Positions 183-30,908 of a stretch of 32,785 nucleotides of DNA are shown here, piece by piece. A program made the position numbers and the translations under genes. Positions within the stretch are counted from its first letter, which is position 1. Every line of letters begins with the position of its first letter. The notes beneath the pieces were generated by a model. That model worked only from the letters and a program-made list of their open reading frames with translations. It had not been told where the DNA came from and searched no databases. Location: positions 1-32,785 of the IMG/VR virus record IMGVR_UViG_3300044971_000900. One strand, given 5' to 3'. This DNA comes from a virus.

Positions 183-190
183 TATTTATT
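183..190 (+). promoter_or_regulatory. Putative late-promoter octamer TATTTATT before the portal gene
   Basis: TATTTATT lies 14 bases before the portal start codon. It is one of twelve related octamers that sit just before gene starts in this window. The promoter role is inferred from position and recurrence. Confidence 0.45.
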
Positions 191-204
191 AAAAACGCAT
201 TTAC

Positions 205-2070
205 ATGGCTGAAAACCGAGATCCAAATTTATTTCAACGACTACAACGATTATTTAGTACGGATGTAATCATTCGTAACGTAGGAGGTAATCAACTAAAA
301 GTAGTTGATACAGATCACCTACAGTCCAGTGGAAACCTACAAAACAACAGCCGCATTGATAGGTTCAATCGACTATATGGTACTGGACCGACTACTGCTT
401 ACAACAATGGTCAATTACTCCAAGCAACTCGACTAGAAGTTTTCCGCGATTACGAAGCAATGGACTCCGATAGTATCATTTCGTCTGCATTAGACGTTTA
501 TGCAGATGAGTGTACAGCTAAAGATGAGTTTGATGATACACTCACAATTGTGACATCAAACGAAAAAATACACAAAGTATTACACAACCTATTCTACGAC
601 ATTCTTAATGTAGAGTTCAATCTTTGGCCATGGATTAGAAGTACCTTGAAATATGGAGACTTCTTTCTACATTTACACATCACAGAGAAGTACGGTATTA
701 CAAACGTAGAGCCAGTTTCTGTTTATGAGATGATTCGTGAGGAAGGATCGGATCCAGAAAAACCAAACGAGGTTGTATTTAGAAGAGACTTATCAGCAGG
801 TGTAACTACATCAGCTACTTTCTACCGTAGAGATATTGACTCTGAGGAGTATCAAAATTACGAAGTTGCTCACTTTAGATTATTAACAGATACCAACTTC
901 TTACCATACGGTCGTTCACTAATCGAACCAGCACGTAAGGTTTGGAAGCAGTTGACTTTGATGGAAGATGCGATGTTGATTCACAGAATCATGCGAGCTC
1001 CTGATAAGCGTATTTTCAAGATTGATATTGGTAACATTCCACCTGCAGAAGTTGATGCGTTCATGGAGAACACAATCAACAAGATGAAGAAGATTCCATT
1101 TATGGATGAGGCTACTGGTCAATACAACTTAAAATACAACATGCAAAACATACTAGAAGACTTCTATCTTCCAGTTCGTGGAGCAGAGAGTGGTACTACG
1201 ATTGAAACAACACCAGGTTTAGCTCACGATGCTATTCCTGATATCGAGTACTTAAAAAACAGAATGCTTGGATCATTAAAGATTCCAAAAGCTTACTTAG
1301 GATACGAGGAAGATACTACTGGTAAGTCTACATTATCGTCACAAGACTTCCGCTTTGCTAAAACCGTAGAGCGTATTCAAAAGATTATTGTTTCTGAGCT
1401 TACAAAGATTGCAATCATTCACTTGTATGCTCAAGGATTTCAAGACGATGAGATTGTTGATTTCTCACTAAAACTTACACCTCCAAATACAATATACGAG
1501 AGAGAGAAGATTGAATTGTGGACATCTAAAGCTGCACTCGCTCAAACCCTAGTTGAGCAGCGATTATTCAGCAAGTACTGGTGCTATGAAAATATCTTCA
1601 ACATTCCAGAAGACGATTGGTTAAGAGAGCAAGAGAATCTAGCAAAAGGAGAGAAGGAGTTTTTCCGATTGGAGCAGATTAAGACAGAGGGTAATGATCC
1701 ATCTAAGACTGGTCAATCCTTTGGAACACCTCACGACATTGCCTCACTATACAAAGGTGATAATGGAGTTCCTCCAGGATACGATGAGAAGAAAGTACCT
1801 GATGGAGGATGGGACGGTGCAGGACGACCAGAAGAACCTGGTACGTATATGACACACCAACATCCAATGGGCTGGGATCCATTTGGCAGAAAAGCGTTTA
1901 AAGTAGCAAGAAATGTATACGAGGCTTCTAAAAGCAGTGGCAACGGAGGCATGATAAAACACAGAGATGTAATAGAAAGCTACAACAAACACAATGCAAT
2001 TCGCCAAACATACGAGGATAAACCGGAAGGACCGTCTATGCTCAACGAAGAAAACATATTAGACGAATAA
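205..2070 (+). CDS. 20: Portal vertex protein (T4 gp20-like)
   Basis: 621 residues, against 524 for T4 gp20. The portal is the dodecameric ring at one capsid vertex through which DNA is packaged and ejected, and it nucleates head assembly. Family features are clear: a region around residues 220-240 (HFRLLTDTNFLPYGRSLIEP), a helical stretch with RIMRAPDKRIFKIDIGNIPP, then ILEDFYLPVRGAESGTTIET and the following PGL segment, all typical of T4-type portals. The C-terminal 120 residues are polar with Gly/Pro-rich parts (GYDEKKVPDGGWDGAGRP) and look like an extension. The ATG at 205 has no Shine-Dalgarno sequence; TATTTATT lies 14 bases upstream. It directly follows the probable terminase gene. Confidence 0.93.
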   Translation: MAENRDPNLFQRLQRLFSTDVIIRNVGGNQLKVVDTDHLQSSGNLQNNSRIDRFNRLYGTGPTTAYNNGQLLQATRLEVFRDYEAMDSDSIISSALDVYADECTAKDEFDDTLTIVTSNEKIHKVLHNLFYDILNVEFNLWPWIRSTLKYGDFFLHLHITEKYGITNVEPVSVYEMIREEGSDPEKPNEVVFRRDLSAGVTTSATFYRRDIDSEEYQNYEVAHFRLLTDTNFLPYGRSLIEPARKVWKQLTLMEDAMLIHRIMRAPDKRIFKIDIGNIPPAEVDAFMENTINKMKKIPFMDEATGQYNLKYNMQNILEDFYLPVRGAESGTTIETTPGLAHDAIPDIEYLKNRMLGSLKIPKAYLGYEEDTTGKSTLSSQDFRFAKTVERIQKIIVSELTKIAIIHLYAQGFQDDEIVDFSLKLTPPNTIYEREKIELWTSKAALAQTLVEQRLFSKYWCYENIFNIPEDDWLREQENLAKGEKEFFRLEQIKTEGNDPSKTGQSFGTPHDIASLYKGDNGVPPGYDEKKVPDGGWDGAGRPEEPGTYMTHQHPMGWDPFGRKAFKVARNVYEASKSSGNGGMIKHRDVIESYNKHNAIRQTYEDKPEGPSMLNEENILDE

Positions 2071-2088
2071 TAATACGGAACAGCGACA

Positions 2089-2096
2089 TACTTATT
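2089..2096 (+). promoter_or_regulatory. Putative late-promoter octamer TACTTATT
   Basis: TACTTATT, the C variant of the recurrent octamer, lies 17 bases before the start at 2114 and would serve the tightly overlapping run of genes up to 5877. Promoter role inferred. Confidence 0.4.
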
Positions 2097-2113
2097 ACTA
2101 GGGAAAACTATAC

Positions 2114-2950
2114 ATGAAAAAATCAACACATTCCAAGTTAAAAAACACTGGAATCTTATTCGAGCTGTTAACAAGACAAATTACTGCCGATACAATGGTA
2201 GGTGTGTCTGACTCACCAGCGCTTAAGATTGTGAAAGAGTTTTTTGGACCAAAGAAGACTTTGGCAAAAGAGTTGGTGCTATACCATACACTAATCAATG
2301 AGTCGTTCAAAGCACCAGCCAAAGCTGAGATGCTTTTAGCTACAACCATTAAGCTTCGCAAAGCCCTTAGCCAAAAGGTCTTACAAGAGAGTAAGTATCA
2401 GTTAATCAAAGAGGTTAAAAAGCACTACGATCTTCGTGAGTTTTTCAAAGCGACTGTAGCTGATTATAAATTGCATGCAGCAATCTATCGTTTGTTTGAA
2501 GGTGCAGGAGTAACTCAAGTTGCTGAGCTTGTAAAAAGTCGCACAACGATTACCGAGCATATCATGCGTAAACGTCAAGCATCTCCAGAGGTAGATACTA
2601 CTCAGTCTTACTTGAAGGAGTCAGAAGATGTTAGACTATTAGCATACCGCTTAATGCTTGAAAAATTCAACGATAAGTATTCTGTACTTTCTGCAGGTCA
2701 ACGCAAGATCCTTAAAGAGTATATCAATAACATATCTAACACAAGCGAGCTTCGTACATTCATCATGAAGGAGAGTAAAGCGCTTAAGCAGTTAATTGCC
2801 AAGAAAGCTGATAAAGTAAAAGATAAAGTTACTGCTATTAAGTTAGCTGAAGTAGCACACCTATTAGATCGCAATCAAACAATCAAACGAGCTAAGGAAG
2901 AGCATGTACACGGTTTGTTATTGTATCACGAACTGTTAAAAGAACTATGA
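2114..2950 (+). CDS. Unrecognised helical protein between portal and protease
   Basis: 278 residues, rich in Lys, Leu and Glu, apparently almost all alpha-helical, with no Cys and no membrane segment. It begins MKKSTHSKLKNTGILFELLTRQITADT and has no motif that I recognise as enzymatic. It stands immediately after the portal gene, where T4 carries the small prohead-core genes 67 and 68, so a core or portal-associated assembly role is plausible but unproven; it is much longer than gp67 (about 80 residues) or gp68 (about 140). The next gene starts within its stop codon (ATGA overlap at 2947-2950), which suggests translational coupling. The start at 2114 has a weak AGGG upstream and the TACTTATT octamer at 2089. 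Confidence 0.75.
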   Translation: MKKSTHSKLKNTGILFELLTRQITADTMVGVSDSPALKIVKEFFGPKKTLAKELVLYHTLINESFKAPAKAEMLLATTIKLRKALSQKVLQESKYQLIKEVKKHYDLREFFKATVADYKLHAAIYRLFEGAGVTQVAELVKSRTTITEHIMRKRQASPEVDTTQSYLKESEDVRLLAYRLMLEKFNDKYSVLSAGQRKILKEYINNISNTSELRTFIMKESKALKQLIAKKADKVKDKVTAIKLAEVAHLLDRNQTIKRAKEEHVHGLLLYHELLKEL

Positions 2951-3678
2951 AAAGACAAGAGAAGAGAGAGCTTCGTGAGTTTGTAAAAACACAACTAAAA
3001 AAGATGCGTGAAGGTAGCACTACCGGAAACGTAGCATCTTATAGTACTCCTAGAGCCTTTGTAGGAGATCCAAAAGCTGATGAGCCAACTTCGTTTGAGG
3101 TTGAAGACGATCAATACGCATACTCGATTAAAGCTCCTAAGGAGAGAAAAAATTCAATTAAACTACACGAAGTTTCATATAAGTCATTTAAGACAGATGA
3201 GACTAGAACTAGCGTACAAAAAGTTAATCAAAACATCTTAGAAGTAGCAAAGAAACTTGGTGAAGTATCAAGAATGCTTAACCACAGCATTAAGCTAAAA
3301 ACAGAACAAAAGATGTCTAATGTGCATTGGAAAAAGACAAACGAAGCGTTGGTGAAGATACACCAAAGAATACAAGAGCTTGCCGACAAAGCTAACAACT
3401 TGTACGATTTGAAAGAAGCAACAGCACAATCTATCAAGACTAAACTAGCTGACTACTTTACAAAAGCGGGTCTGCAAGTTAAACCTCAAGACATCGACTA
3501 CAATCAATTAGGAAACGAGTGGTATGAGTTTGATGTTATGATCATGGGAGAACCGCAAGCTATTGATTATCGTAATGGCGAGATCTTTTGGCAAGCCTAT
3601 GACGAAGAGATTAGATTAGGAAACATTGCTCAAGAGCAGGAGTTGGTGCAAAACATAACTAAAGAATTTAAACCATGA
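2947..3678 (+). CDS. Unrecognised protein, possible prohead core component
   Basis: 243 residues. The N-terminus is strongly basic and helical (MKRQEKRELREFVKTQLKKM) and leads into a disordered-looking segment (TTGNVASYSTPRAFVGD). The middle, about residues 75-160, is a heptad-like helix. A compact C-terminal domain of about 80 residues, with several aromatics (NEWYEFDVMIMGEP, GEIFWQAYDEE), follows. The gene overlaps its neighbours by four bases on both sides (ATGA at 2947 and 3675), so it is co-translated with the protein above and the protease. Function unknown; position in the portal-protease interval suggests head assembly. Confidence 0.72.
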   Translation: MKRQEKRELREFVKTQLKKMREGSTTGNVASYSTPRAFVGDPKADEPTSFEVEDDQYAYSIKAPKERKNSIKLHEVSYKSFKTDETRTSVQKVNQNILEVAKKLGEVSRMLNHSIKLKTEQKMSNVHWKKTNEALVKIHQRIQELADKANNLYDLKEATAQSIKTKLADYFTKAGLQVKPQDIDYNQLGNEWYEFDVMIMGEPQAIDYRNGEIFWQAYDEEIRLGNIAQEQELVQNITKEFKP

Positions 3679-4292
3679 AACAAGTAATTGTAGATTACAT
3701 TGGATCAATCGAAGTATCACCAGCACAGATAAACGAGTCGCTTGCCAATAACGGAGGTAAGTTAATCGTATCCGGTATCATGCAACGTGGTAGCTCTAGT
3801 AATAATAGAAACTTCAATCAAAACGGAAGAAGCTATCCATTACCAATCTTAAAAAGAGAGTCCGAAAAGTATAAGCAAACTTTTGTAAAAGAGCGCAGAG
3901 CTTTAGGAGAATTAGATCACCCAGAATCACAAGTAGTAAACCTAGCAAACGTATCTCATAACATATTAGATTTGTGGTGGCAAGGAAACGACTTGATGGG
4001 TAAGATTGAAATACTTTCTACACCATCAGGAAACATTGCTAAAGAATTGTTGAAGTCTGGTATTAGACTAGGCATCAGCTCTCGAGGAATGGGATCTGTA
4101 AGAGAGTTGGGAGAGGGTAAAGTGGAGGTAGAAGATGACTTTGAAATCGTATGTTGGGACTTAGTAAGTAACCCATCTACACAAGGAGCGTTTATGTCAC
4201 CATCCCTAAACGAGAGTGTTACTCTAGGCGCTAACAGAAGCTACAATAAAATCAACTCTCTCATTAATGAGATTATAACAGTAATGCAATGA
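3675..4292 (+). CDS. 21: Prohead core protease (T4 gp21-like)
   Basis: 205 residues, close to T4 gp21 (212). This serine protease of the herpesvirus-assemblin-like fold cleaves scaffold, capsid and itself during head maturation. Visible catalytic elements are GELDHP, with His82, and LGISSRG, with Ser135/Ser136; WDLVSNPS near residue 161-168 is the conserved block after the active-site strand. T4 gp21 cuts after (L/I)-x-E. Such sites occur here at INE (Glu21) and LNE (Glu180), near both ends, as would suit self-processing; that is inference. The start codon overlaps the previous stop (ATGA), and its own stop overlaps the next start. Confidence 0.9.
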   Translation: MKQVIVDYIGSIEVSPAQINESLANNGGKLIVSGIMQRGSSSNNRNFNQNGRSYPLPILKRESEKYKQTFVKERRALGELDHPESQVVNLANVSHNILDLWWQGNDLMGKIEILSTPSGNIAKELLKSGIRLGISSRGMGSVRELGEGKVEVEDDFEIVCWDLVSNPSTQGAFMSPSLNESVTLGANRSYNKINSLINEIITVMQ

Positions 4293-4672
4293 GAAATATA
4301 TTACAACAAATCAACGAAGTAATGACTGGAAACACTCCAGGTCAAAAACTACACTTGAACGAAAAGGCTCAAGTATTAGAAGAAATCAAAAGCTATCAAG
4401 CATTGGGTGAGGTAATTTACCGAAGCGAAGGTTTGAAAGAAGCAGCTACTAAAATCTCTAAGATTGTAGAAAAAGCAGAAGGACTTGTGTTGCAAGAGAC
4501 TGAGGAGTGGTTTGATGAGGTAACCATTAAGCGTAACATGAAAGAACTTAACAGCAAAAACCAAGAGTTTGTTAAGACTGTTAACGAAATGGCAAAGCTT
4601 CAACAACGATTAGAGTCTTTATATGAGGAGATGGGTAACGGATTATCTCGCTACTATGAAATTGGTAACTAA
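4289..4672 (+). CDS. Small helical protein of unknown function
   Basis: 127 residues, acidic and helical throughout, with heptad-like spacing of Leu, Ile and Val in the second half (KELNSKNQEFVKTVNEMAKL, then LQQRLESLYEEM), which suggests a coiled coil. No enzymatic motif is seen. It starts in a four-base overlap with the protease stop codon and its end overlaps the next gene. Because it sits between protease and scaffold in a co-translated run, a role in the prohead core is the simplest guess; I do not recognise the family. Confidence 0.7.
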   Translation: MRNILQQINEVMTGNTPGQKLHLNEKAQVLEEIKSYQALGEVIYRSEGLKEAATKISKIVEKAEGLVLQETEEWFDEVTIKRNMKELNSKNQEFVKTVNEMAKLQQRLESLYEEMGNGLSRYYEIGN

Positions 4673-5039
4673 TAAAGAAACCACTATTAAGCTCTTAGCT
4701 GAGATCCTTAGCGAGTATCAAATACTTGCTGAAGCGAATCCCTTTGCAGCAGCTGCGGAAAAAGCAGATGCAGGAGGAGGTGACGCAGGAGCAGAAGAGC
4801 CTGCAGCAGATGCTGAAGGTGGTGGTGAAGAGAAGGCAAAAGACGACAAAAAAGCTAAGCCAGCCGAACCAGCAGGGTTGACTGTAGACTTCAATATATC
4901 TGCTGTTAAAAAGTACAATGACGCAGCATTTCGATCTAACAAAGGTGAAGTTAAAGCTATCAATAAAAACGGATTAGAAGTAGCTGTTGATAATGGACAG
5001 ACAATTCACATAAACTTTCAAGACATAACAAATGAGTAA
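4656..5039 (+). CDS. Small acidic Ala/Gly-rich protein of unknown function
   Basis: I prefer the ATG at 4656 (127 residues, starting MKLVTNKETTIKLLAEILSE) over the in-frame ATG at 4623, because the upstream codons overlap the well-formed end of the previous gene and give a less natural N-terminus. It has three parts: a short N-terminal helix, a low-complexity Ala/Gly/Glu segment at about residues 30-75, and a C-terminal globular part with alternating hydrophobics (GEVKAINKNGLEVAVDNGQ) that looks like a small beta barrel. It overlaps the gene before by 17 bases and the gene after by 8. Function unknown; possibly part of the head core. Confidence 0.62.
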   Translation: MKLVTNKETTIKLLAEILSEYQILAEANPFAAAAEKADAGGGDAGAEEPAADAEGGGEEKAKDDKKAKPAEPAGLTVDFNISAVKKYNDAAFRSNKGEVKAINKNGLEVAVDNGQTIHINFQDITNE

Positions 5040-5877: not shown

Positions 5878-5905
5878 ACCAAAAAAGTTACGATTTTTTT
5901 TACAT

Positions 5906-5936
5906 AAAACCAACTTTTTTTTTAAGTTTAGGTTTT
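5906..5936 (+). terminator. AT-rich hairpin after the protease gene cluster
   Basis: AAAACCAACTT (5906-5916) can pair with AAGTT (5924-5928) and GGTTTT (5931-5936) across a seven-T loop, with a two-base bulge. It lies 29 bases after the stop at 5877. GC content is low and no T run follows the stem, so termination is uncertain; an oligo-T run is found inside the loop. Confidence 0.3.
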
Positions 5937-5946
5937 CTGTTGACTA

Positions 5947-6026
5947 CGTATTATTAAATACGCTATCCCTGATATGGCGTCCTAAACAAATTATTCCCAA
6001 TTGCAGTTCTAAATAACTGTAGGACG
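5947..6026 (+). promoter_or_regulatory. Structured leader before the scaffold and capsid genes
   Basis: The 165 bases before the scaffold gene hold several inverted repeats. CGTATT/AATACG (5947-5952 with 5957-5962) has a four-base loop. CGTCCTA (5978-5984) pairs with TAGGACG (6020-6026). Inside that stem, CAGTT/AACTG (6004-6008 with 6015-6019) forms a hairpin directly abutting the outer stem. No TATTTAT octamer is present here, unlike before most other units, so this region probably carries a different promoter plus an RNA leader controlling scaffold and capsid production. The function is inferred from structure and position. Confidence 0.4.
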
Positions 6027-6042
6027 TTCAAAAACAATCAAA

Positions 6043-7053: not shown

Positions 7054-7074
7054 TCTTAAAAACCCAACAACAAA

Positions 7075-8673: not shown

Positions 8674-8696
8674 TCGAACATAAACCAGACTGAAAG

Positions 8697-8724
8697 CCCC
8701 TCCTAGTGAGGGGTTTTCTTTTTT
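8697..8724 (+). terminator. Intrinsic terminator after the major capsid gene
   Basis: Perfect six-base stem CCCCTC/GAGGGG (8697-8702 with 8708-8713), five-base loop, followed by TTTTCTTTTTT. It is 23 bases after the capsid stop and separates capsid from the PhoH gene. Confidence 0.9.
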
Positions 8725-8730
8725 CCAAAC

Positions 8731-8738
8731 TATTTATA
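8731..8738 (+). promoter_or_regulatory. Putative late-promoter octamer TATTTATA before PhoH gene
   Basis: TATTTATA lies immediately after the capsid terminator and 10 bases before the ATG at 8749. A terminator followed directly by this octamer and a start codon recurs at 21941 and 23101, supporting a promoter role. Confidence 0.5.
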
Positions 8739-8748
8739 GGAAAGCAAA

Positions 8749-9485: not shown

Positions 9486-9493
9486 TATTTATA
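9486..9493 (+). promoter_or_regulatory. Putative late-promoter octamer TATTTATA before neck genes
   Basis: TATTTATA, 18 bases before the ATG at 9512. It overlaps the right arm of an inverted repeat ATAGCT (9461-9466) / AGCTAT (9483-9488). Likely serves the co-translated genes 9512-12792. Promoter role inferred. Confidence 0.45.
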
Positions 9494-12799: not shown

Positions 12800-12807
12800 T
12801 ATTTATT
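12800..12807 (+). promoter_or_regulatory. Putative late-promoter octamer TATTTATT before first large fibre
   Basis: TATTTATT in the gap after the short fibre-like gene, 27 bases before the ATG at 12835. Promoter role inferred. Confidence 0.45.
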
Positions 12808-12834: not shown

Positions 12835-14583
12835 ATGCCAACTTGGAAAAAAGTCATAGTATCCGGCTCAGCAGCTGAATTAAGTCAATTAAACGTCGGA
12901 GCTAATCAGCAAATCACAACTGCACAAGGCACAACGTTTTTAACGGGATCATTTACGGGGTCATTTGTTGGAAGTGGTGCTGGCTTAACTGGCGTAACTG
13001 CAACAGCCATCTTCCCGACAACAGCTAAGACTGACTTAGCTACTACCGATCAATTCTTTATCAACGACGGAGCTAGTAAGTTTGTTACATATGGCAACTT
13101 AGTAACAGATTTAGCAGGATCAGGTGCTGGTACAAGTAACTTAACTACAACCGATACTGGCGATAGTTTAGCCTTGACTTCTCAAATCGCTGTAACTGGA
13201 GTAACTGCATCCTTCCTAGGTAACGTAGCAGGAACAGCGTCATGGGCATCCAACGTAGTAGGCGGTATTGGAGTAACCTCAGTTGCGACCGCAGGTACAG
13301 TATCGGGTATTACTCTAACGGGTGGTACGATTACCTCAACTGGAACTATTACTCTAGGTGGATCTATTTCCGGCCTTACAAACTCAAACTTATCTGGCAC
13401 TGCAGGTATTACAAATGCTAATTTAGCAAACTCTGCAATCACAATAGCAGGAACATCAACCTCATTAGGTGGATCAATCACAGCTGCTACGATTTTAAGT
13501 GGTACTGGAGTATTCTCAGGTTCTGCTCAAATTCCTAACAGCTCCATTCAAAACGCTCAGCTAGCAAACAGTAGCGTTACAGTTGGATCAACCGCTATAT
13601 CGTTAGGTTCATCAGCAACTACACTTGCAGGTTTAGTTAGTGTAACATCAACTGGCTTTACTGGTTCACTTCTAGGAACTGCATCTTGGGCAAATAATGC
13701 AACTACTGCTGCTACAGCAAATGCTACAACAGCAGCATTAACAGCAGGAGCTGGCCTCTTGAGTGGTGGTACATTTAACGGATCTACAGCGAGAACATTC
13801 TCAGTAGATTCTGGATCAATGCTTCCATACTACTCTGGTTCTATCTTCAGTACACTTTCAGGTGGTGCAACAGTAGCCCAAAATGGTGTAGTAACTTTAA
13901 AAACAGGCCTTGTATCGGGATCGTCAATTGCATCAGGTGCACAAGGTGAAGTAACCCTTACAACAAACGGCGTAGCAGCTTCAGCAGTTGACTTAGGATT
14001 ACAAACAACAGACTCTCCACAATTCGTAGGATTAACGTTGACGGGTGATGCAGCAGTAAACGGTGGTGATATTACAACCTCAGCTACTACATTTAACTTA
14101 GTCAATTCTAATGCAACCACAGTTAACTTTGCAGGTGCAGCTACTACCTTAAACTTAGGTAACGCATCCGGAACTACAACAGTTGCAGGTAATGCAGTAG
14201 TACAAGGTGACTTCACAGTAAATGGAACAACTACATATCTTAATGTTCAAGACCTTTACGTAGAGGATAAATTTATCGTATTAGCTTCTGGATCTGCAAC
14301 AGCAGGAGATGGTGGTATCATAATTGATAGAGGATCAGATGCAGCAGGAAACATTGCTTACGGTTTTGACTCAGTAACCGATCGTTGGGGATTCCAGTCA
14401 GGACTTGCAGATTCTACTAACACCTTTGATCCAACTGCAAACTCAGGTGTAAGTGGTTCATTTGTTCCTTATTTATTCACCGAAACAAGTCACGGTTCTA
14501 CTAAACCAATCACTGGAGAATTTGCAGTAGTAGGTAGCCAGTATATGGATGCAGCAGGAAACTTCTGGATCTACACAGCGTAA
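12835..14583 (+). CDS. Large repeat-rich tail fibre protein, copy 1
   Basis: 582 residues, without Cys, dominated by Ser, Thr, Gly, Ala and Val. It starts MPTWKKVIVSGSAAELSQLN, nearly the same as the second large fibre (MPNWKKVIVSGSDAALSTLI), so this is probably the virion-attachment anchor. The shaft holds repeats of types GTASWA, SVATAGTVSGITLTGGTITS and SNLSGTAGITNANLANS. Near the C-terminus, VQGDFTVNGTTTYLNVQDLY and FIVLASGSATAGDGGIIIDRG match a domain widespread in fibres of T4-like phages. The end (YMDAAGNFWIYTA) is the presumed distal tip. Role: host adhesion or a baseplate or neck fibre; the receptor is unknown. Confidence 0.8.
   Translation: MPTWKKVIVSGSAAELSQLNVGANQQITTAQGTTFLTGSFTGSFVGSGAGLTGVTATAIFPTTAKTDLATTDQFFINDGASKFVTYGNLVTDLAGSGAGTSNLTTTDTGDSLALTSQIAVTGVTASFLGNVAGTASWASNVVGGIGVTSVATAGTVSGITLTGGTITSTGTITLGGSISGLTNSNLSGTAGITNANLANSAITIAGTSTSLGGSITAATILSGTGVFSGSAQIPNSSIQNAQLANSSVTVGSTAISLGSSATTLAGLVSVTSTGFTGSLLGTASWANNATTAATANATTAALTAGAGLLSGGTFNGSTARTFSVDSGSMLPYYSGSIFSTLSGGATVAQNGVVTLKTGLVSGSSIASGAQGEVTLTTNGVAASAVDLGLQTTDSPQFVGLTLTGDAAVNGGDITTSATTFNLVNSNATTVNFAGAATTLNLGNASGTTTVAGNAVVQGDFTVNGTTTYLNVQDLYVEDKFIVLASGSATAGDGGIIIDRGSDAAGNIAYGFDSVTDRWGFQSGLADSTNTFDPTANSGVSGSFVPYLFTETSHGSTKPITGEFAVVGSQYMDAAGNFWIYTA
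12843..12863 (+). repeat. Direct repeat shared by the two fibre gene starts (copy 1)
   Basis: A 21-base sequence starting TTGGAAAAAAG and ending CATAGTATC is identical to 15172-15192 in the second fibre gene. Both code for the WKKVIVSGS anchor. It could serve recombination between fibre genes or may only reflect conserved protein. Confidence 0.75.
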
Positions 14584-15069: not shown

Positions 15070-15077
15070 TATTTATA
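15070..15077 (+). promoter_or_regulatory. Putative late-promoter octamer TATTTATA with long leader
   Basis: TATTTATA lies 86 bases before the ATG of the second large fibre, much farther than at the other sites, leaving a long 5-prime leader. Promoter role inferred. Confidence 0.42.
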
Positions 15078-15087
15078 GAAAATAATT

Positions 15088-15147
15088 GTTGTTGGCCGCA
15101 AGGAAGTAGGCGCACACACGGCATAAGTGTATGTATCTAACCACAAC
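15088..15147 (+). promoter_or_regulatory. Possible structured RNA leader of the second fibre
   Basis: Between the octamer and the fibre start, GTTGT (15088-15092) plus GG (15094-15095) can pair with CC (15141-15142) plus ACAAC (15143-15147). An alternative or nested stem, GCCG/CGGC (15095-15098 with 15119-15122), is possible. The segment is more GC-rich than its surroundings. It could be a translational control element or a small RNA; neither is demonstrated. Confidence 0.3.
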
Positions 15148-15163
15148 TTAATTAAGACATAGT

Positions 15164-18103
15164 ATGCCAAATTGGAAAAAAGTCATAGTATCAGGCTCTG
15201 ATGCTGCATTAAGTACGCTAATAGTAACTGGAGCCGCAGCTATCGGAACATCTAGCTTAGGAGCTAGCGAAAACACCTTAACTTTAGGTGCTCGTGATTC
15301 AGTAAACGAGGGAGCTCAATTAGGATTCAATGCTCCTGGAGGATCGTATATTTCATCTTCATTCCTTGATCTTTACCAAAACAGATTTAGAATACTTAAA
15401 GGCACAAACGCTAGTAGTACTGCAGAAGTTGCTAGCTGGAATATGCATACCCTGCAAGCAGCGTTACCTGCGTATAATAGTGTATCAGCATTTCCAGGAA
15501 CAGCAGTAGCAACCTTAGCAGTAGATAGCGGTGGTAATATACTTACAATTGCAGGCGGTGGATCTGGAACAGTAACATCCATAGCAACTACCGGTAACGT
15601 ATCAGGCATTACTTTAACTGGAGGCACAATTACCACTTCAGGTACAATTACACTAGGTGGATCGGTTACTGGATTAACTAATGCCAACCTATCGGGTACT
15701 GCGGGCATTACAAATGCCAACTTAGCAAACAGTAGTGTGACGATTGGCTCGACTGCAATATCGCTAGGAGGGACATCTACAACCTTAGCAGGATTAACCA
15801 ACGTAACTTCTACAAACTTTACTGGGTCATTATTAGGTACAGCATCATTTGCTACATCAGCATCGGTAGCAGCTACGTCATCTAAGGTAATTTCTCAAGG
15901 TTCTATTTCTGGTGGTACTCATTATTTTTTAATTTCGGGTGAAGATATATCAAGCGGTCCAGTAGCAGCAACCGTACGGACTAGTAACTTAACATATAAT
16001 TCTACCACTAATACATTACCAACAACAGCATCATGGGCAACTAACGTAGTTGGTGGTATTGGAGTAACAAGTGTTGGAGGTACTGGCACAGTTAACGGAA
16101 TAACACTAACTGGTACAGTAACAAGTACTGGCAACTTGACTTTAGGAGGTACACTTTCTGGTATTGGCAACTCACAATTAACAAATAGCTCCATTACGAT
16201 AGCAGGCACAAGTACAGCATTGGGTAGTTCAATTGCACAATCAACAATCTTGGCGGGCTCAGGAGTGTTCTCAGGCTCTGCTCAGATTACTGGACTAACC
16301 AATTCCAATTTATCAGGAACTGCTGGAATCACAAATGCCAATTTAGCAAATAGTAGTGTTACGATTGGTTCCACAGCAATAAGTCTAGGAGCATCCTCTA
16401 CAACATTAGCAGGTTTAACTAATGTCACTTCTACAAACTTTACTGGGTCACTACAAGGTACAGCTTCGTTAGCAACAACTGCAACAACAGCTTCGTTTGT
16501 TAAAACCATAAATACAGTTAACAATACAGCTTACTATTTAACTGGAGTCGATTCTGATAATGGTACACTAAGTCCGGAACAGCTTTATACTTTTGGTGGA
16601 GTATCTTATAATCCTGACACCAATACAATGTCCATCTCTGGTGGAGGTGGTACAATCGTTGGTTCATTAAATGGAACGGTAAATGGAACGGCATCTTGGG
16701 CAACCAATGTGGTTAATAACGGAGTGACATCAGTCGGCGGTACTGGAACTGTTAACGGTATCTCTTTATCAGGTACAGTAACAAGTACTGGCAACTTGAC
16801 TTTGGGTGGTACTCTTTCCGGAATTGGCAACTCACAACTGACAAATAGTAGTGTTACAATCGGATCAACCGGTATATCATTAGGTGGAACATCAACAACA
16901 CTAGCAGGTCTAACTAACGTAACATCGACTAACTTTACCGGTTCTTTATTCGGTACAGCATCCGCAGCTTCATCCGCCTCTCTCGCATTAAATGCGGAAA
17001 TCGGTAAGACGGTAATGTTAACAGATACCAATGGGATCAACGCCAATTACTACCCCACATTTGTTGGAGCAACTTCAGCAAACGCCGGTGTTTTAGTTGA
17101 TAGTTCTGGTATAACATATAACCCCAGTACAAATACGTTAACCGCTACAACGTTTGTCGGTGCATTAACGGGTAACGCAACAACTGCTACTAGTGCAACA
17201 ACTGCTACTAGTGCAACAACTGCTACTTCAGCAACAACTGCAACAACAGCAGCATCAGCTAGTAGTATACTACCTAGCACCGTTACGGGTACTGTTCCGG
17301 TTCCATTTATGTCAACAAAAACACCAGGTGTCGCAGCATACTTAGGTGGTGACACTGTTTTAACATACAATACTAGCACAGGAACATTGAATGCATCAGG
17401 ATTCAGTGGAACAACCTTCACTGGAACAACCTTTAGTGGAAACGCAGCAACTGCAACCACAGCACAGTCTGCTAGTACAGCGCTAGTAACAACAGCCGCT
17501 GTTCACTATCCTATATTTGTAGACGCTAATAATGCAACTCCTGCCTCTGAAAAATTAGGTACAGTATCTGGCTACAACTTCAATCCAGGCACTGTAAGAT
17601 TAGAGATTACCGGATCATTATTTGCCACAAATATAACGGGTTCACTTCAAGGAACAGCCTCGTACGCCACAATGGCATCACAAAGTGGATATACAATGCA
17701 ATTTGTATTAGCTACTACTGGGTCAAATCCAGCCGCAAGCACAATCTACCGCTTGGGGGCTCCAGTACGAAATCAGTTAAACACCACAACAGGACGAACT
17801 AGAATATATGTACCAAGACCTGGAAAAGTGAGGCATGCTCACATATACATTAGAACAAACGGAACTCTTGCCTCTGCAGGAACATCAACACTAACTTTGA
17901 ATAAAAATTCTAGTATTGGTGAAACAATAGCAACATCAACTACTGCAGGATCAAGTGCAGACGCAGTTATATCAAGTACTGCAGTGTCTATGAGTGTCGC
18001 GCAGGGTGATTTTTTAGAAATTAACTGGACAACCCCAGCATGGGCAACACTACCGACTGCAGTTGAAGCTAACGCAATAATTTACATTGAAAATAATATA
18101 TAA
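15164..18103 (+). CDS. Large repeat-rich tail fibre protein, copy 2
   Basis: 979 residues, no Cys, very rich in Ser, Thr, Gly, Ala and Val. The N-terminal anchor MPNWKKVIVSGSDAALS matches the first fibre. The shaft has at least three copies of a module of the type TSVGGTGTVNGITLTGTVTS, then TLGGTLSGIGNSQLTNSS, then ISLGGTSTTLAGLTNVTSTN and FTGSLxGTAS; two of these copies are about 220 residues apart. A low-complexity (ATTATS) stretch lies near residues 672-695. The last about 110 residues differ: GRTRIYVPRPGKVRHAHIYI to the end looks like a globular beta-sandwich tip, a candidate receptor-binding domain. Probably the long tail fibre or a side fibre. Confidence 0.8.
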   Translation: MPNWKKVIVSGSDAALSTLIVTGAAAIGTSSLGASENTLTLGARDSVNEGAQLGFNAPGGSYISSSFLDLYQNRFRILKGTNASSTAEVASWNMHTLQAALPAYNSVSAFPGTAVATLAVDSGGNILTIAGGGSGTVTSIATTGNVSGITLTGGTITTSGTITLGGSVTGLTNANLSGTAGITNANLANSSVTIGSTAISLGGTSTTLAGLTNVTSTNFTGSLLGTASFATSASVAATSSKVISQGSISGGTHYFLISGEDISSGPVAATVRTSNLTYNSTTNTLPTTASWATNVVGGIGVTSVGGTGTVNGITLTGTVTSTGNLTLGGTLSGIGNSQLTNSSITIAGTSTALGSSIAQSTILAGSGVFSGSAQITGLTNSNLSGTAGITNANLANSSVTIGSTAISLGASSTTLAGLTNVTSTNFTGSLQGTASLATTATTASFVKTINTVNNTAYYLTGVDSDNGTLSPEQLYTFGGVSYNPDTNTMSISGGGGTIVGSLNGTVNGTASWATNVVNNGVTSVGGTGTVNGISLSGTVTSTGNLTLGGTLSGIGNSQLTNSSVTIGSTGISLGGTSTTLAGLTNVTSTNFTGSLFGTASAASSASLALNAEIGKTVMLTDTNGINANYYPTFVGATSANAGVLVDSSGITYNPSTNTLTATTFVGALTGNATTATSATTATSATTATSATTATTAASASSILPSTVTGTVPVPFMSTKTPGVAAYLGGDTVLTYNTSTGTLNASGFSGTTFTGTTFSGNAATATTAQSASTALVTTAAVHYPIFVDANNATPASEKLGTVSGYNFNPGTVRLEITGSLFATNITGSLQGTASYATMASQSGYTMQFVLATTGSNPAASTIYRLGAPVRNQLNTTTGRTRIYVPRPGKVRHAHIYIRTNGTLASAGTSTLTLNKNSSIGETIATSTTAGSSADAVISSTAVSMSVAQGDFLEINWTTPAWATLPTAVEANAIIYIENNI
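15172..15192 (+). repeat. Direct repeat shared by the two fibre gene starts (copy 2)
   Basis: Identical over 21 bases to 12843-12863. The two copies are 2329 bases apart in the same orientation and bracket most of the first fibre and both small paralogues. Confidence 0.75.
16027..16180 (+). repeat. Fibre shaft repeat, copy with partner 660 bases downstream
   Basis: This segment matches 16688-16840 closely. The stretch 16112-16143 is identical to 16772-16803 (starting GGTACAGTAACAAGTACTGG), exactly 660 bases apart. It codes for the TSVGGTGTVNGITL to LSGIGNSQLTNSS part of the shaft. Such near-identical DNA suggests a recent duplication or gene conversion. Confidence 0.7.
16688..16840 (+). repeat. 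Fibre shaft repeat, second copy
   Basis: Partner of 16027-16180, with one codon fewer near its start (VVNNGVTS against VVGGIGVTS). Parts are identical in DNA and parts differ only at third codon positions. Confidence 0.7.
17177..17248 (+). repeat. 18-base tandem repeat inside fibre gene
   Basis: Four head-to-tail copies of an 18-base unit, GCAACAACTGCTACTAGT; the first two are identical, the third and fourth differ at the end. It encodes ATTATS. Unit number can change by slippage in frame, which would lengthen or shorten the fibre by six residues per unit. Confidence 0.85.
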
Positions 18104-18652: not shown

Positions 18653-18660
18653 TATTTATT
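18653..18660 (+). promoter_or_regulatory. Putative late-promoter octamer TATTTATT
   Basis: TATTTATT, 18 bases before the ATG at 18679, in the 47-base gap after the fibre-associated gene. Promoter role inferred. Confidence 0.45.
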
Positions 18661-18983: not shown

Positions 18984-18991
18984 TATTTATT
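18984..18991 (+). promoter_or_regulatory. Putative late-promoter octamer TATTTATT before tail sheath
   Basis: TATTTATT, 25 bases before the sheath ATG at 19017. The intervening leader is A-rich and has no Shine-Dalgarno sequence. Promoter role inferred. Confidence 0.5.
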
Positions 18992-21404: not shown

Positions 21405-21412
21405 TACTTATA
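21405..21412 (+). promoter_or_regulatory. Putative promoter octamer TACTTATA between sheath and tube
   Basis: TACTTATA sits directly after the sheath stop and 10 bases before the tube ATG at 21423. C variant of the recurrent octamer. It could provide extra tube transcripts; inferred. Confidence 0.38.
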
Positions 21413-21911: not shown

Positions 21912-21940
21912 TAAGGACTGGGAAGTTCCCAATCGAACAA

Positions 21941-21968
21941 AGCCAACCGTAAAAAGTTGGCTTTTTTT
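21941..21968 (+). terminator. Intrinsic terminator after tail tube gene
   Basis: Stem AGCCAAC/GTTGGCT (21941-21947 with 21956-21962), eight-base loop, then a run of T to 21968. It is 30 bases after the tube stop. Confidence 0.9.
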
Positions 21969-21980
21969 GTTTTCCGTGCA

Positions 21981-21988
21981 TACTTATA
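21981..21988 (+). promoter_or_regulatory. Putative promoter octamer TACTTATA before the gp26-like gene
   Basis: TACTTATA follows the tube terminator and precedes the ATG at 22014 by 25 bases, repeating the terminator-octamer-start order seen at 8697 and 23101. Confidence 0.45.
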
Positions 21989-22013
21989 AGAAAGTTACTA
22001 ATAAACAATATCT

Positions 22014-23097: not shown

Positions 23098-23100
23098 TAT

Positions 23101-23124
23101 AAGCCAGTGAAACGCTGGCTTTTT
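23101..23124 (+). terminator. Intrinsic terminator after the gp26/gp51-like pair
   Basis: Stem AAGCCAG/CTGGCTT (23101-23107 with 23115-23121), seven-base loop, then T to 23124. It starts three bases after the stop codon at 23097. Confidence 0.9.
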
Positions 23125-23137
23125 CTTATCACTAAAC

Positions 23138-23145
23138 TATTTATA
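23138..23145 (+). promoter_or_regulatory. Putative late-promoter octamer TATTTATA
   Basis: TATTTATA, 13 bases before the ATG at 23159 and directly after a terminator. Probably serves the long run from 23159 to 30896, in which I find no further octamer. Confidence 0.5.
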
Positions 23146-23158
23146 AGAAATCAATAGC

Positions 23159-23491: not shown

Positions 23492-23507
23492 GTAGAGGCT
23501 AGAAAAT

Positions 23508-26195: not shown

Positions 26196-26196
26196 T

Positions 26197-28368
26197 ATGG
26201 AAACAAATAAGCCATTTAAGACAATAAGCCTCGAACAACGTCTTGCACAAAGCGTAATGGCTAAGTTTGATCCGGAAAAAACAAAACAAGCACCTAAGAA
26301 GGGTGCTGCTGACTTGAAGTTGATCGGTGACGCTCAAGAGAAGAATGCCGCTATTCTAAAGCAGATGGCTCGAACAGCTAAGCAACCAGTCTTACCAACA
26401 CCTTCACAATTCAAACAAAGCGATCTTGCTAACCGCGATACACGAGAAGCGTATACAAGCTTTCCAAAAAACATTAGGTTAGGTGATAGGTTAGCACAAC
26501 CACTTGACTCAAGAACAACACACTTGGCAAAGTACTTTTTGAGTGACACCTATAGTGGCATCATGAAGGCAACACCGTTTGTGACTTCACCGCTAGCTAG
26601 TAGAGTAAACATAGATCCGTATGGATTTGCCGATAAAGGAGCTATAACTTTCCATCGTAATTTGGATCCTAAGAAAGGCAGTCCAATTTTACAAAACACA
26701 CTAACACTGGCTAACCCTATTGCAAATCAAACCAACCAAGTTTTGATTAAGAGTCTTAGGGGATTTGGATCAGTATTAACATCGCAAGGAACCACAACAT
26801 CTAATGGAGCGTTTGTATCGTTAGCAGAAGTTAAGCAGTCTTTATCGGAAACATTAACTCTTATCAACCAGGGAGCAACTGTATCTAACAATGTATTTCA
26901 GTCAGTAACTCAGACTAAGCTATCCGTTATTCCTCAGCTCATTCAACAAGGTGGTGTAGAGATTAAAAAACCAATTGGATTAACAGATGTAGCTTTGTTG
27001 CAAGGACTACTACTTGACCAAGGTGAAATAGGTGATAGTTTTTTAAAACCAGAGTCAATTGATCCAATTCCAAATATAATTAGAGGTGTTCGTAGGTTTC
27101 CTAAGAACCCTGCAGTATTTAAGTTACCAGACTTAAAAGCTAAGCAGAACTCATCACCTGCAGTAAACGAAACGGGACAACCACTACAACCTACTACAGC
27201 ATACAAAAGACTTGCTCCAATCCTACAAAACATTGATAGTAGTTTGGATGTCTTAAAAAAGGATCTTATTGGATATGGCTCAGCAACTTTACCATTTGCT
27301 TACAGTCCATCACCCTACTACTCACCAACTCTAAAGGTTGCTAAGTATGAAGCTGATAGGTTGATAGCTCGCTTTGCACCAACCGTTAAGCATGGTTCAA
27401 GTGCTCTTAAAACATTCAATCCAGATATAAGACAAGGTTCTACTGAGGTTGATCAATCGGATCTACAACCAACACCACAGAAAGGACCTTATAAGTCTTT
27501 TAAAAACTCAGGTGAACCTATCGGTTTTCTTGATGCAGTAGGGCAGGCCAACTCTCAACCAATACCAGAAGTGTTCCAAGAAGGAGCTACTGTAGGTTAT
27601 GGTAATGTGAATCGAGAAGTGTGGGCTAGTATTAGACAAGCACTTGAAGGTGGTGATGCACTTCCTATTGACGACTTTACCAATTTCCCATCTGGGGATA
27701 CATCACAAGGAAGCTTGGCTAAGTACAAAGCTCTCTCGTATGGTGAAATAGAATCAGCAGCTGCCGCAGCCGCAAACAATGCAGGGTTAAGTGCGTTGGC
27801 AGCATCGGGACCTAACCCACAAATTGGAGCAGGAAACCGTAAAGTACAAAAAGTACTAGACTATAATGGTAAGGATTATATCACCATTAAGATTGCTAGC
27901 GAGACATTAGGTACAAACGTTGTATTTAAAGCTTACTTGAGTAGCTTTAGTGATAGCTTTTCTACTAGTTGGAACGATGTGCAATATGTTGGACGTCAAG
28001 AAACACTCAAGCAGTTCAAAGGAGTTACTCGTGGTGTGAGTTTTGGGTTAGCGGTACCATCCTTTAGTGTAGTGGATTTACCAATTAATATGGCTAAAAT
28101 TCAAAAAGCAATAAACATTACCTCAATAGCTACTTATAGTGGCAACTACTTAAAAGGCCCTTTGTGTAAATTAACACTTGGAGGTTTCTTTAAAAATGTG
28201 TATGTTGTGTTTAACAGCTTTAAGGTTGACTTCGATCCAGCAGAATCTACTTGGGATATTGATAGTGGATTACCACATTTATTAAGAATATCAATGGATG
28301 CAACAGTGTTGGGAGATGCAGCAGGAAAAGGATTAGATGCAAAAAGCAGTATACATTATAATTTTTAA
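26197..28368 (+). CDS. Baseplate-tail tube junction protein (gp48/gp54-like C-terminus) with long N-terminal extension
   Basis: 723 residues, about twice T4 gp48 (364) or gp54 (320). The recognisable part is the last about 175 residues: DYITIKIASETLGTNVVFKA, YLSSFSDSFSTSWNDVQYVG, RQETLKQFKGVTRGVSFGLA, then YSGNYLKGPLCKLTLGGFFK, the tube-like domain of proteins that cap the baseplate and seed the tail tube. The first about 540 residues are polar, Pro/Gln/Asn-rich and of unknown fold; they are not fibre-like. One-base gap after the tape measure stop. It precedes a LysM protein and a hub-like protein, as expected for the baseplate centre. I cannot say whether it corresponds to gp48 or gp54. Confidence 0.6.
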   Translation: METNKPFKTISLEQRLAQSVMAKFDPEKTKQAPKKGAADLKLIGDAQEKNAAILKQMARTAKQPVLPTPSQFKQSDLANRDTREAYTSFPKNIRLGDRLAQPLDSRTTHLAKYFLSDTYSGIMKATPFVTSPLASRVNIDPYGFADKGAITFHRNLDPKKGSPILQNTLTLANPIANQTNQVLIKSLRGFGSVLTSQGTTTSNGAFVSLAEVKQSLSETLTLINQGATVSNNVFQSVTQTKLSVIPQLIQQGGVEIKKPIGLTDVALLQGLLLDQGEIGDSFLKPESIDPIPNIIRGVRRFPKNPAVFKLPDLKAKQNSSPAVNETGQPLQPTTAYKRLAPILQNIDSSLDVLKKDLIGYGSATLPFAYSPSPYYSPTLKVAKYEADRLIARFAPTVKHGSSALKTFNPDIRQGSTEVDQSDLQPTPQKGPYKSFKNSGEPIGFLDAVGQANSQPIPEVFQEGATVGYGNVNREVWASIRQALEGGDALPIDDFTNFPSGDTSQGSLAKYKALSYGEIESAAAAAANNAGLSALAASGPNPQIGAGNRKVQKVLDYNGKDYITIKIASETLGTNVVFKAYLSSFSDSFSTSWNDVQYVGRQETLKQFKGVTRGVSFGLAVPSFSVVDLPINMAKIQKAINITSIATYSGNYLKGPLCKLTLGGFFKNVYVVFNSFKVDFDPAESTWDIDSGLPHLLRISMDATVLGDAAGKGLDAKSSIHYNF

Positions 28369-28378
28369 ACAAAAGTAA

Positions 28379-28687
28379 ATGCCATACAGTCGATACACTG
28401 AGGTTCCACAAAAGAAGGATCCAAACAATAGGAGAGTGCTGATGTCAACTATCTATCCGCCTATTCCAAAGCACTCAGACGACACCTACGTATTAACAAC
28501 AGTAGGAGATACGTTGTATGCATTAGCTTTACAATACTACAACTCAGTTAATTACTACTGGATTATTGCAGAAGCAAATGAAGGATTAGATAAAACAACA
28601 CTAAATTTAACACCAGGATTGCAATTAAGAATCCCATCACAGTTATCACAAATCTTAACAGATTTTGAAGACCTAAATAATATGTAA
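28379..28687 (+). CDS. LysM-domain baseplate protein (gp53-like or gpX-like)
   Basis: 102 residues, of which about 36-86 form a LysM-type domain: YVLTTVGDTLYALALQYYNS, then VNYYWIIAEANEGL and LTPGLQLRIP. In T4, gp53 of the baseplate wedge carries a LysM-like fold, and many contractile phages have a short LysM protein (P2 gpX) near the hub; here the short length is closer to the latter. There is no signal peptide or catalytic domain, so it is a structural tail protein and not a free lysin. It sits between the tube-junction and hub genes with gaps of 10 and 4 bases. Confidence 0.75.
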   Translation: MPYSRYTEVPQKKDPNNRRVLMSTIYPPIPKHSDDTYVLTTVGDTLYALALQYYNSVNYYWIIAEANEGLDKTTLNLTPGLQLRIPSQLSQILTDFEDLNNM

Positions 28688-28691
28688 TGTT

Positions 28692-30896
28692 ATGAGTAAC
28701 CCTTTTAAAGGAATTGATGTACCTGGTCTAGTTAAGACTGAGTTAAACAGTAGAGCTGACACCTCTAAAGCATTAAGGTGGACTGCAAAGCGTGTTCCTT
28801 GGATACACGTAATGTCAATGTCCAATGCATGTAAAGACAGTAGCTATAATGTACTAGGTAATTCCGTCTATTTAGCAGGTGGATCATCTATACTTGGCAC
28901 AGTATCAAAAACATCCTTATACGACAAAGCTTCTGGATTACCATTTCCAGTTGTTACGGGTGTTGAGGTAGGAGCTTTAGGTAACCTAGGTAGTACACGT
29001 AAAGCCACCGTGAAGGTAAAAGCTTACACGGATGAACAGTTAGTAGAACTACAAAAGTGTTATTTTATTCCTGGAATGGATGTAAGAGTTCAGTTTGGTT
29101 GGAACGAATCATGTACCGGAGAGTCTGCACCACCCGTATATATTGCTGTAGTTGATCGTGCACAAGCTGTGTGTGAAATGTATAATAAAGCCAAAGCAAA
29201 CACTGCTTACGATGGCTTACAGGGTATTGTCAGCAATTTCAAATACAGCTTACAAGACGACAATTCGTGGGACTGTGAAATAGAAATTAATTCACCTGCC
29301 GATCCATTTGCTGATAGTAATGTCTCAGACTCTCAGTGTGGTTGCACTCGCAAAACCAAAATGACCAACTCTGAGGGTAAAGAAGAGGAGGGGATAGCAA
29401 AGAATGGACAATTATATGCTATGCTACTTGACTGCTTTACTGATCCAAACAATGCAGCACAATGGGCCTCTAAATTAAAAAGTAACGAATATGCGGGATC
29501 ACCTGCATTAAGAGGAACTGTTGGTTGGAGCAGTAGACACTACTTCGGAAAAGCTCGAACTGAGATTGGAGGAGATGACTCAAGCTGGTACGAAGGTAAC
29601 CTTATCAATCCATATGACACTACTGAGCAATACATATCTTACGGAATGCTCGAAGCTGCCATAAATGCCTACACAGTTCCAAATGCAAAAGGTTTACCGT
29701 ATGGTCGTATTGATTCTAGTGGAATTGTATTACCAATACCATCAACCATTGTATCAACCGATCCACGAGTGTGTGTTATCGGAGGTGGAGCATTCGATGT
29801 AACAGCTCTGAAAGAAGGAGGAATACCAAATGCAGTAGGAGGAGGAACGTCCCAGGCAACGAACAATGATGCTACAACACAAGTAGCAGCAACGTATGCA
29901 ACTGTTGTTGGGACAACCTTAGGAGGTCCAGTAGGTGGTATTGTTGCTGCCAACGTTGCAAATAACCTAGGTAATTCTCAAGCTCACGATGCAGGTATTG
30001 CTTCGTTAGAGGGTGGAGGAAGCTTAGCAGCTCCAGGTGGAGGTTTAACTCTATGCAATGTTGAGTTGAATGTTATATTCCTAATGATGGAACTCAAAAA
30101 GGTGCTAGATGGTGATAAGAAGATGTCTACTTTTTTGCGAGCAGTAGTTGATGAAGTAAACCGAGTATGTGGTAATCCTTGGAACATAGAGATTATAGCA
30201 AGCAGTGAGACAACTTCTGGATGTGGTAGTCGAGGAGGAATGCAAGGAGCTGCTATCTCAGTAGTCGATGTTAAGCAGTACGAACCAACTGGTCCGTATA
30301 TGGTCCCAGCCAAACCTGGAAAGTCAGCTGCTCGAAACATCTCATTAGACTTAAAGATGACAGGAGCTATGAAAACTCAAGCACTCTATGGACCTGGAAC
30401 ACAACAACGAGGTAGTGGTAACACCGCTGCTGGTGGAGATGCAACTGGATGTGAAGGAAAGTCAATGGAACCGTTTTATGTTGGTCAGGGTGTTACTAAA
30501 AACAGAGCAATGGAGTCTGCTACAAAGACAGACAAGACTAAGTGTGATTGTGATGAGATTGACACTCCTAAAAAAGAACCAGAACCATCTTTCCAGGAGT
30601 TGGGGTTAGCAGTGTATGATAGTGTTTCAGATGAAACTTGCAAAGCACTACTTAACGCATTAGTAGAGAGAATACACACAGAAGCAAAACCGCACTGTGC
30701 TGGAGTTCCACTACCGTTTGACTTTAGCTTTGAGGTTGATGGTATAGGAGGCTTCCGTTGGGGTCAAGTTGTATCTTGTGATCGTATTCCGGCTGGAATC
30801 AGAAAAAATATGCAGTGGCAAGTTACCAAAGTTGATCACAGCATCACAGCTAACGACTGGGTTACAAAAGTTGGTACAGTAGCAAAATCACTTTAA
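28692..30896 (+). CDS. Baseplate hub-like structural protein, cysteine-rich
   Basis: 734 residues. Two blocks resemble tail-hub proteins of distant T4-like phages: LGSTRKATVKVKAYTDEQLV followed by FIPGMDVRVQFGWNES in the N-terminal quarter, and near the end PFDFSFEVDGIGGFRWGQVV followed by NMQWQVTKVDHSITANDWVT. These suggest a gp27-type hub at the tail tip; no lysozyme domain is visible. The middle has a Gly/Ala-rich hydrophobic stretch (TYATVVGTTLGGPVGGIVAA). I count 18 Cys, including CGC, GCG and CDC clusters, while capsid and fibres here have none and the sheath four. Assignment is by pattern and gene position. Confidence 0.6.
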   Translation: MSNPFKGIDVPGLVKTELNSRADTSKALRWTAKRVPWIHVMSMSNACKDSSYNVLGNSVYLAGGSSILGTVSKTSLYDKASGLPFPVVTGVEVGALGNLGSTRKATVKVKAYTDEQLVELQKCYFIPGMDVRVQFGWNESCTGESAPPVYIAVVDRAQAVCEMYNKAKANTAYDGLQGIVSNFKYSLQDDNSWDCEIEINSPADPFADSNVSDSQCGCTRKTKMTNSEGKEEEGIAKNGQLYAMLLDCFTDPNNAAQWASKLKSNEYAGSPALRGTVGWSSRHYFGKARTEIGGDDSSWYEGNLINPYDTTEQYISYGMLEAAINAYTVPNAKGLPYGRIDSSGIVLPIPSTIVSTDPRVCVIGGGAFDVTALKEGGIPNAVGGGTSQATNNDATTQVAATYATVVGTTLGGPVGGIVAANVANNLGNSQAHDAGIASLEGGGSLAAPGGGLTLCNVELNVIFLMMELKKVLDGDKKMSTFLRAVVDEVNRVCGNPWNIEIIASSETTSGCGSRGGMQGAAISVVDVKQYEPTGPYMVPAKPGKSAARNISLDLKMTGAMKTQALYGPGTQQRGSGNTAAGGDATGCEGKSMEPFYVGQGVTKNRAMESATKTDKTKCDCDEIDTPKKEPEPSFQELGLAVYDSVSDETCKALLNALVERIHTEAKPHCAGVPLPFDFSFEVDGIGGFRWGQVVSCDRIPAGIRKNMQWQVTKVDHSITANDWVTKVGTVAKSL

Positions 30897-30900
30897 CAAC

Positions 30901-30908
30901 TATTTATG
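30901..30908 (+). promoter_or_regulatory. Octamer TATTTATG overlapping a start codon
   Basis: TATTTATG includes the first ATG of the next gene (30906). If this is a promoter element, transcription would begin downstream of that ATG and the start would be 30912 or later. It may be a chance match. Confidence 0.25.

Follow-up and report, generated by a model that had tools for sequence, protein, structure and literature searches.

A recurrent octamer before virion genes is very probably a two-base variant of the T4 late promoter in a large group of T4-like phages

The octamer TA(T/C)TTAT(A/T/G) recurs before gene starts in a phage genome fragment, raising the questions of whether it is a promoter and what might read it. 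The window analysed here is the entire IMG/VR record IMGVR_UViG_3300044971_000900, a virus fragment of 32,785 bases with a G+C content of 39.8% and its genes on the + strand. PHROG matches in the window include portal, prohead protease, major capsid protein, PhoH-like protein, head-tail adaptor, tail sheath, tail tube and baseplate genes. The phage is T4-like and related to Flavobacterium phage immuto, and the window is its virion-gene cluster; by capsid protein, immuto and Microcystis phage Mel-JY01 are the nearest named phages, with the Rhodothermus phage RM378 more distant. Judged by its position, the incomplete last gene (ATG 31682) looks like the DNA polymerase gene that opens the immuto record. 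About 80 relatives were taken from viral contigs.

The original prediction placed the octamer at twelve coordinates, all of which were exact (Table 1). It had missed a thirteenth site in the capsid operon, which had seemed to have no promoter: at 5945, ahead of the genes for scaffold and major capsid protein, lies TACGTATT, a one-mismatch version whose aligned counterpart in the close relative L009 is TACTTATT. The spacing of 10–27 bases to an ATG given for most copies applies to 10 of the 12, and the three copies described as lying directly behind terminators do follow terminator-like hairpins. Coding sequence on the + strand contains two exact octamers, at 14470 and 28131, rather than the single one reported, and TATTTATG also occurs at 16507 on the - strand.

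Table 1. Octamer sites and associated features in the window
Feature	Sequence	Coordinates	Strand	Context
Octamer	TATTTATT	183..190	+	14 bases before ATG 205 (portal)
Octamer	TACTTATT	2089..2096	+	17 bases before ATG 2114
One-mismatch octamer	TACGTATT	5945..5952	+	upstream of scaffold (6043) and major capsid (7075) genes
Terminator-like hairpin and T run		8697..8724	+	directly before 8731 octamer
Octamer	TATTTATA	8731..8738	+	10 bases before ATG 8749 (PhoH-like)
Octamer	TATTTATA	9486..9493	+	18 bases before ATG 9512 (head-tail adaptor)
Octamer	TATTTATT	12800..12807	+	27 bases before ATG 12835
Octamer	TATTTATA	15070..15077	+	86 bases before ATG 15164; leader RNA behind
Conserved three-way-junction leader RNA (model R1)		15085..15161	+	
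Octamer	TATTTATT	18653..18660	+	18 bases before ATG 18679
Octamer	TATTTATT	18984..18991	+	25 bases before ATG 19017 (tail sheath)
Octamer	TACTTATA	21405..21412	+	10 bases before ATG 21423 (tail tube)
Terminator-like hairpin and T run		21941..21969	+	before 21981 octamer
Octamer	TACTTATA	21981..21988	+	25 bases before ATG 22014 (baseplate hub)
Terminator-like hairpin and T run		23102..23125	+	before 23138 octamer
Octamer	TATTTATA	23138..23145	+	13 bases before ATG 23159
Octamer	TATTTATG	30901..30908	+	overlaps ATG 30906; ATG 30912 sits 3 bases behind
Contrast: candidate host-like two-box promoter	GTTG-N20-TATATTGG	31646..31677	+	before ATG 31682; no octamer

The + strand of the window has 14 copies of TAYTTATD and the - strand has one. 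The proposed comparison with a shuffled control failed for the total, 15 copies on both strands against a shuffle mean of 14.1, and succeeded for strand and place. Since the total equals the shuffled expectation, counting over the whole window is uninformative by itself, and the signal lies in the strand bias of 14 to 1 and in the noncoding placement. The 1426 noncoding bases of the + strand hold 11 of its 13 copies of TAYTTATW, where 0.53 would be expected and where 2000 simulations reached a maximum of 5; the noncoding bases of the - strand hold none. This enrichment, within the window alone, is already decisive.

Conservation was assessed by an 8-mer search that assumed no motif and covered the 60 bases before 1119 gene starts in the window and its relatives. 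The most enriched 8-mer was TATTTATA, found before 228 of the 1119 starts versus 2.2 expected from coding sequence; on the reverse strand before the same starts it occurred 17 times. Applied to controls, the same procedure returned TATAAATA for the T4 late region and TATTTAAA for RM378. As the relatives are not independent samples, these counts describe conservation and give no clean P-value. The frequency of the octamer depended on the intergenic gap, rising from 7 of 269 starts at gaps of 1–14 bases to 56 of 160 at 15–29, 101 of 145 at 30–59 and 123 of 151 (81%) at 60–119. At gaps of at least 120 bases it fell to 23 of 136 (17%), perhaps owing to missed genes or long leaders. Overlapping starts, predicted to lack the octamer, did so throughout the window and in all but 1 of 213 cases across the window and relatives, and this rate, set against the 81% at 60–119 bases, supports the idea that the octamer marks transcription units.

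A profile of 350 sites had the form A/C-TAYTTATA with an A-rich stretch behind it, strongest at bases 4–5 after the octamer. No -35 element was found in this profile, in which no upstream position was conserved and only a weak T bias was seen, as fits the preceding terminators. The Bacteroidota and Flavobacterium sigma-A promoter consensus consists of a -33 TTTG/TTG and a -7 TAnnTTTG (PMC6847099, PMC9723704), and we compared the two kinds of promoter in the complete immuto genome. The octamer was present at 16 of the 22 head and tail gene starts with gaps of at least 20 bases. In a cluster of small genes at 62–78 kb, which from the kind of gene would be early genes, it was present at 1 of 20 widely spaced starts, nearly all of which carry GTTG-N20-TATMTTTAG, by its sequence a host-like pair of boxes unlike the octamer promoter. 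The octamer also precedes some immuto genes with non-structural products. The window has one such two-box pair, at 31646 before the putative polymerase gene, and it is conserved in the relatives L343 and L344.

These observations bear on a reading in which the octamer is a promoter element of the host type, a variant TAnnTTTG -7 box recognised by sigma-A or by some other sigma of the host. Both are short elements near the start site with TA at the left end; TATTTATA and TAnnTTTG share T-12, A-11, T-8 and T-6 (consensus from PMC6847099), and the start distance of 4–5 bases proposed below is that of the host box. However, the octamer sites lack a -33 TTTG/TTG, the TTTG end and the conserved G-5, other genes of the same phages have an evident two-box promoter of the host-like type, and the identical octamer is used by Mel-JY01, which is recorded from a cyanobacterium. 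We therefore consider recognition by a host sigma unlikely.

The distance from the end of the octamer to the ATG ranged from 3 to more than 40 bases and was bimodal, with one class at 3–4 bases and another at 13 or more. Weighted by gene family, 10.3 families fell at 3 bases and 8.1 at 4, about 2 per position at 5–12, and 7.0 at 13. The simplest reading of this distribution suggests a start site 4–5 bases past the octamer, with spacings of 3–5 forming a leaderless class, leaders of a few bases avoided and longer ones, of about 8 or more bases, tolerated. In RM378 the modal spacing is exactly 5. Such a start site would also account for the odd copy at 30901. At the equivalent place L343, L347 and L349 have TATTTATA, 3 bases and an ATG, so the gene behind this copy probably starts at ATG 30912, as a leaderless type, and not at 30906. 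The very short leaders of the original prediction thus agree with the bimodal spacing, while their proposed link to missing Shine-Dalgarno sequences is weaker, as Mel-JY01 combines the same octamer with AGGAG-like sites and longer leaders.

A structured leader RNA separates the copy at 15070 from its ATG and accounts for the long distance. This three-way-junction RNA is conserved in about 90 viral contigs; both partners change in 10 of its 18 pairs, and pairing held in 93.8% of cells versus at most 46% with slid partners, in an alignment that was fitted to the structure. When a pattern of the RNA was scanned without regard to the octamer, 98 distinct viral places were returned, of which a few are chance hits. 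The octamer was found within 38 bases upstream in 73 of the 98, most often at 8–14, and nearly all of the places precede a gene starting MPxWKKxIxSGS. With the octamer just upstream, the RNA starts at the place expected for transcripts initiated at the octamer, and it is an independent witness for the octamer promoter. Searches of the window and the leader RNAs against Rfam gave only sub-threshold chance matches and no family.

The leader RNA also bears on the possibility that the octamer is no promoter and instead a translation or mRNA-processing signal, such as a ribosome-binding or RNase site. Its closeness to start codons and the fixed commonest spacing of 5 in RM378 would suit such a signal, but the spacing varies widely, a structured RNA can separate octamer and ATG, genes internal to operons lack the octamer though translation signals are needed there too, and in Mel-JY01 it coexists with Shine-Dalgarno-like sites. 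We regard this explanation as very improbable.

The T4 late promoter is the octamer TATAAATA, which is served by the sigma factor gp55, the co-activator gp33 and the clamp gp45, and from which RNA synthesis begins late in infection, some 6 bases past the octamer. gp55 comprises sigma region 2 without region 4 and has a clamp-binding C-terminus. The octamer described here resembles the T4 element in being a single 8-bp -10-type element with no -35 box before virion transcription units, and in matching TATAAATA at 6 of 8 bases in the same orientation. It differs in that the central AA of TATAAATA is TT, so that a literal octamer test fails, and in the frequency of leaderless-type spacing. By this analogy, the octamer very probably works like the T4 late promoter, as a two-base variant of its octamer. 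Although TATTTATA is also the reverse complement of TATAAATA and the window total equals the shuffled expectation, reading it as T4 late boxes of the opposite strand, which would be antisense promoters, or as an artefact of A+T composition is extremely improbable, given that the octamer points in the sense direction toward the downstream gene, often just behind a terminator, that the A-rich stretch and the leader RNA lie on the sense side, and that the noncoding excess has no antisense counterpart. The late-type promoter that we found in RM378, TATTTAAA, shares the first six bases, TATTTA, and is likewise a single element upstream of genes; it differs in having A rather than T at position 7 and in its commonest ATG spacing.

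The window fragment does not include a gene for a candidate sigma of this kind, and the family is known here from relatives. The Pfam model Sigma70_r2 matches T4 gp55 itself weakly (0.0045), and similarly weak matches in the relatives identified ORFs of approximately 240 residues. This family was present in 9 of 14 long records, including immuto, where the member is immuto26A_153, and gave no match in the other 5, records that may be incomplete or too divergent. It was also present in at least 576 viral stretches, in Mel-JY01 and in the uncultured phage LR756508. The group's candidate sigma gene was further found in ten bacterial or archaeal genome bins, 5 of which are labelled Flavobacteriales or Bacteroidetes, and the octamer is very probably common to a large T4-like phage group that mostly infects Bacteroidota.

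Sigma70_r2 matched 18 of 37 members of the family and SigI models matched 30 of 37, the best at 1.7e-5, all below curated cut-offs. Using hhalign, a collinear match to gp55 residues 3–110 was obtained (81%, E 1.2e-5), which fell to 26% with a broader alignment. The N-terminal structure model (pLDDT 91, pTM 0.82) had mostly sigma region 2 as its best PDB neighbours in Foldseek, with E near 1; among them were sigma-E bound to the -10 element (probability 0.89, TM 0.61/0.72) and sigma-B (0.90). The model suggests that a region-2 fold is present, and homology to gp55 is weakly indicated. A fold search with the full two-domain model gave no significant match, with sigma factors scattered among the matches; a PDB sequence search with the family profile gave no result, and a PHROG scan gave nothing meaningful. 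Unlike gp55, the candidate bears an extra helical C-terminal domain, which did not match ECF sigma region 4 in the one comparison made, and the gp55-type C-terminal motif is absent from the family alignment. A T4-type clamp (PF02916) was not detected in the group with a search that was positive for T4, though a divergent clamp may escape it. RM378 has a homolog of the candidate, Rm378p020 (94%, E 1.5e-7). It also has an ECF-like sigma, Rm378p144, adjoining the capsid gene, whose sole outside match was weak, to an immuto protein without sigma matches (E 0.049); we rejected it as a shared late sigma, for which Rm378p020 fits better.

That the octamer is the late promoter of this phage, as originally proposed, has high probability from the gap dependence, the upstream terminators, the lack of a -35 element, the virion genes served and the sigma candidate in the group. 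Taken together, we strongly favour a reading in which it is a late -10-type element read by a phage gp55-like sigma on host RNA polymerase. The consensus [A/C]TATTTATA with its A-rich stretch would form the -10-type element, and the phage-encoded sigma would replace host sigma-A on the host polymerase. The resulting holoenzyme would recognise the octamer alone, without a -35/-33 box, and open the DNA there, and RNA would begin about 4–5 bases downstream. Where the ATG lies 3–5 bases from the octamer the mRNA would be leaderless, and elsewhere it would have a short leader. We infer that a gp55-like sigma likely reads the octamer, and that it would do so late in infection. A literature search on the octamer or an immuto transcriptome returned nothing relevant.

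The question of why there is no fused late sigma is raised in a T4 review (PMC2988020), and the family described here is a candidate for such a protein, no more. It is a tentative idea, which we hold to be possible and less than even in probability, that this is a one-chain late sigma combining a gp55-like region 2 with a beta-flap-binding (sigma-4/gp33-like) domain, working with no T4-type clamp and firing a new class of octamer that often yields leaderless late mRNAs. The candidate makes testable the old question of why the late sigma of T4 is divided between gp55 and gp33. With both octamer and sigma changed, sigma-promoter co-evolution becomes comparable across T4, RM378 and the immuto relatives, and a cultured test system is available in immuto on Flavobacterium sp. 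LMO8. In practical terms, the octamer can be used to search for late units and to correct start codons, and it predicts leaderless late mRNAs. On this reading, the T4 early/late switch would extend to a large environmental group of phages, mostly of Bacteroidota.

The virion gene starting MPxWKKxIxSGS was found to begin about 12-30 bases 3' of a conserved leader RNA, which forms a three-way junction with the pattern TTGGCC..GGAAGTRGGC..CCAACC. Covariation in this leader is strong, and it is carried by about 90 viral contigs. When compared with Rfam the leader RNA was without a family and no Rfam model matched, although it contains the string GGAAGTRGG, which it shares with glnA-type glutamine riboswitches. 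The leader of the scaffold/capsid operon is unusually long, at about 90-100 bases, and has a conserved hairpin, AATACRCTATC..ATAGYGT, directly 3' of the octamer.

Features in the window and in sequence records of relatives (L-numbers)
Feature	Location	Strand	Remarks
Three-way-junction leader RNA	window 15085-15161		also L061, L075, L111, L221-L339
Scaffold/capsid operon leader	window 5945-6042		also 5' of scaffold gene in L009, L012, L023, L061 and others
Exact TACTTATA	window 28131-28138		inside gene 26197-28368
Early-type promoter series	L110 (immuto 62-78 kb); L106		5' of small genes
Candidate gp55-like sigma	L122:1087-1809	(-)	
Candidate gp55-like sigma	L110:28174-28869	+	immuto26A_153, annotated hypothetical
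ECF-like sigma of RM378	L115:28332-28928		adjoins capsid gene

The TACTTATA copy within a gene lies about 240 bases before the start of the next gene (28379), and may be an internal promoter or a chance occurrence. In Flavobacterium phage immuto and L106, small genes are preceded by a series of near-identical early-type promoters, GTTG-N20-TATMTTTAGRTAT-CAATAATTAAAA.

The unannotated candidate gp55-like sigma family has an extra C-terminal helical domain. Besides the gp55-like candidate Rm378p020, Rhodothermus phage RM378 encodes another sigma, which is ECF-like. Microcystis phage Mel-JY01 (L132, L133; PP395634) falls within this otherwise mostly Bacteroidota phage group; it shares the octamer and the candidate sigma, yet also has Shine-Dalgarno-like sites. 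Its placement may reflect a host switch or host mislabelling.
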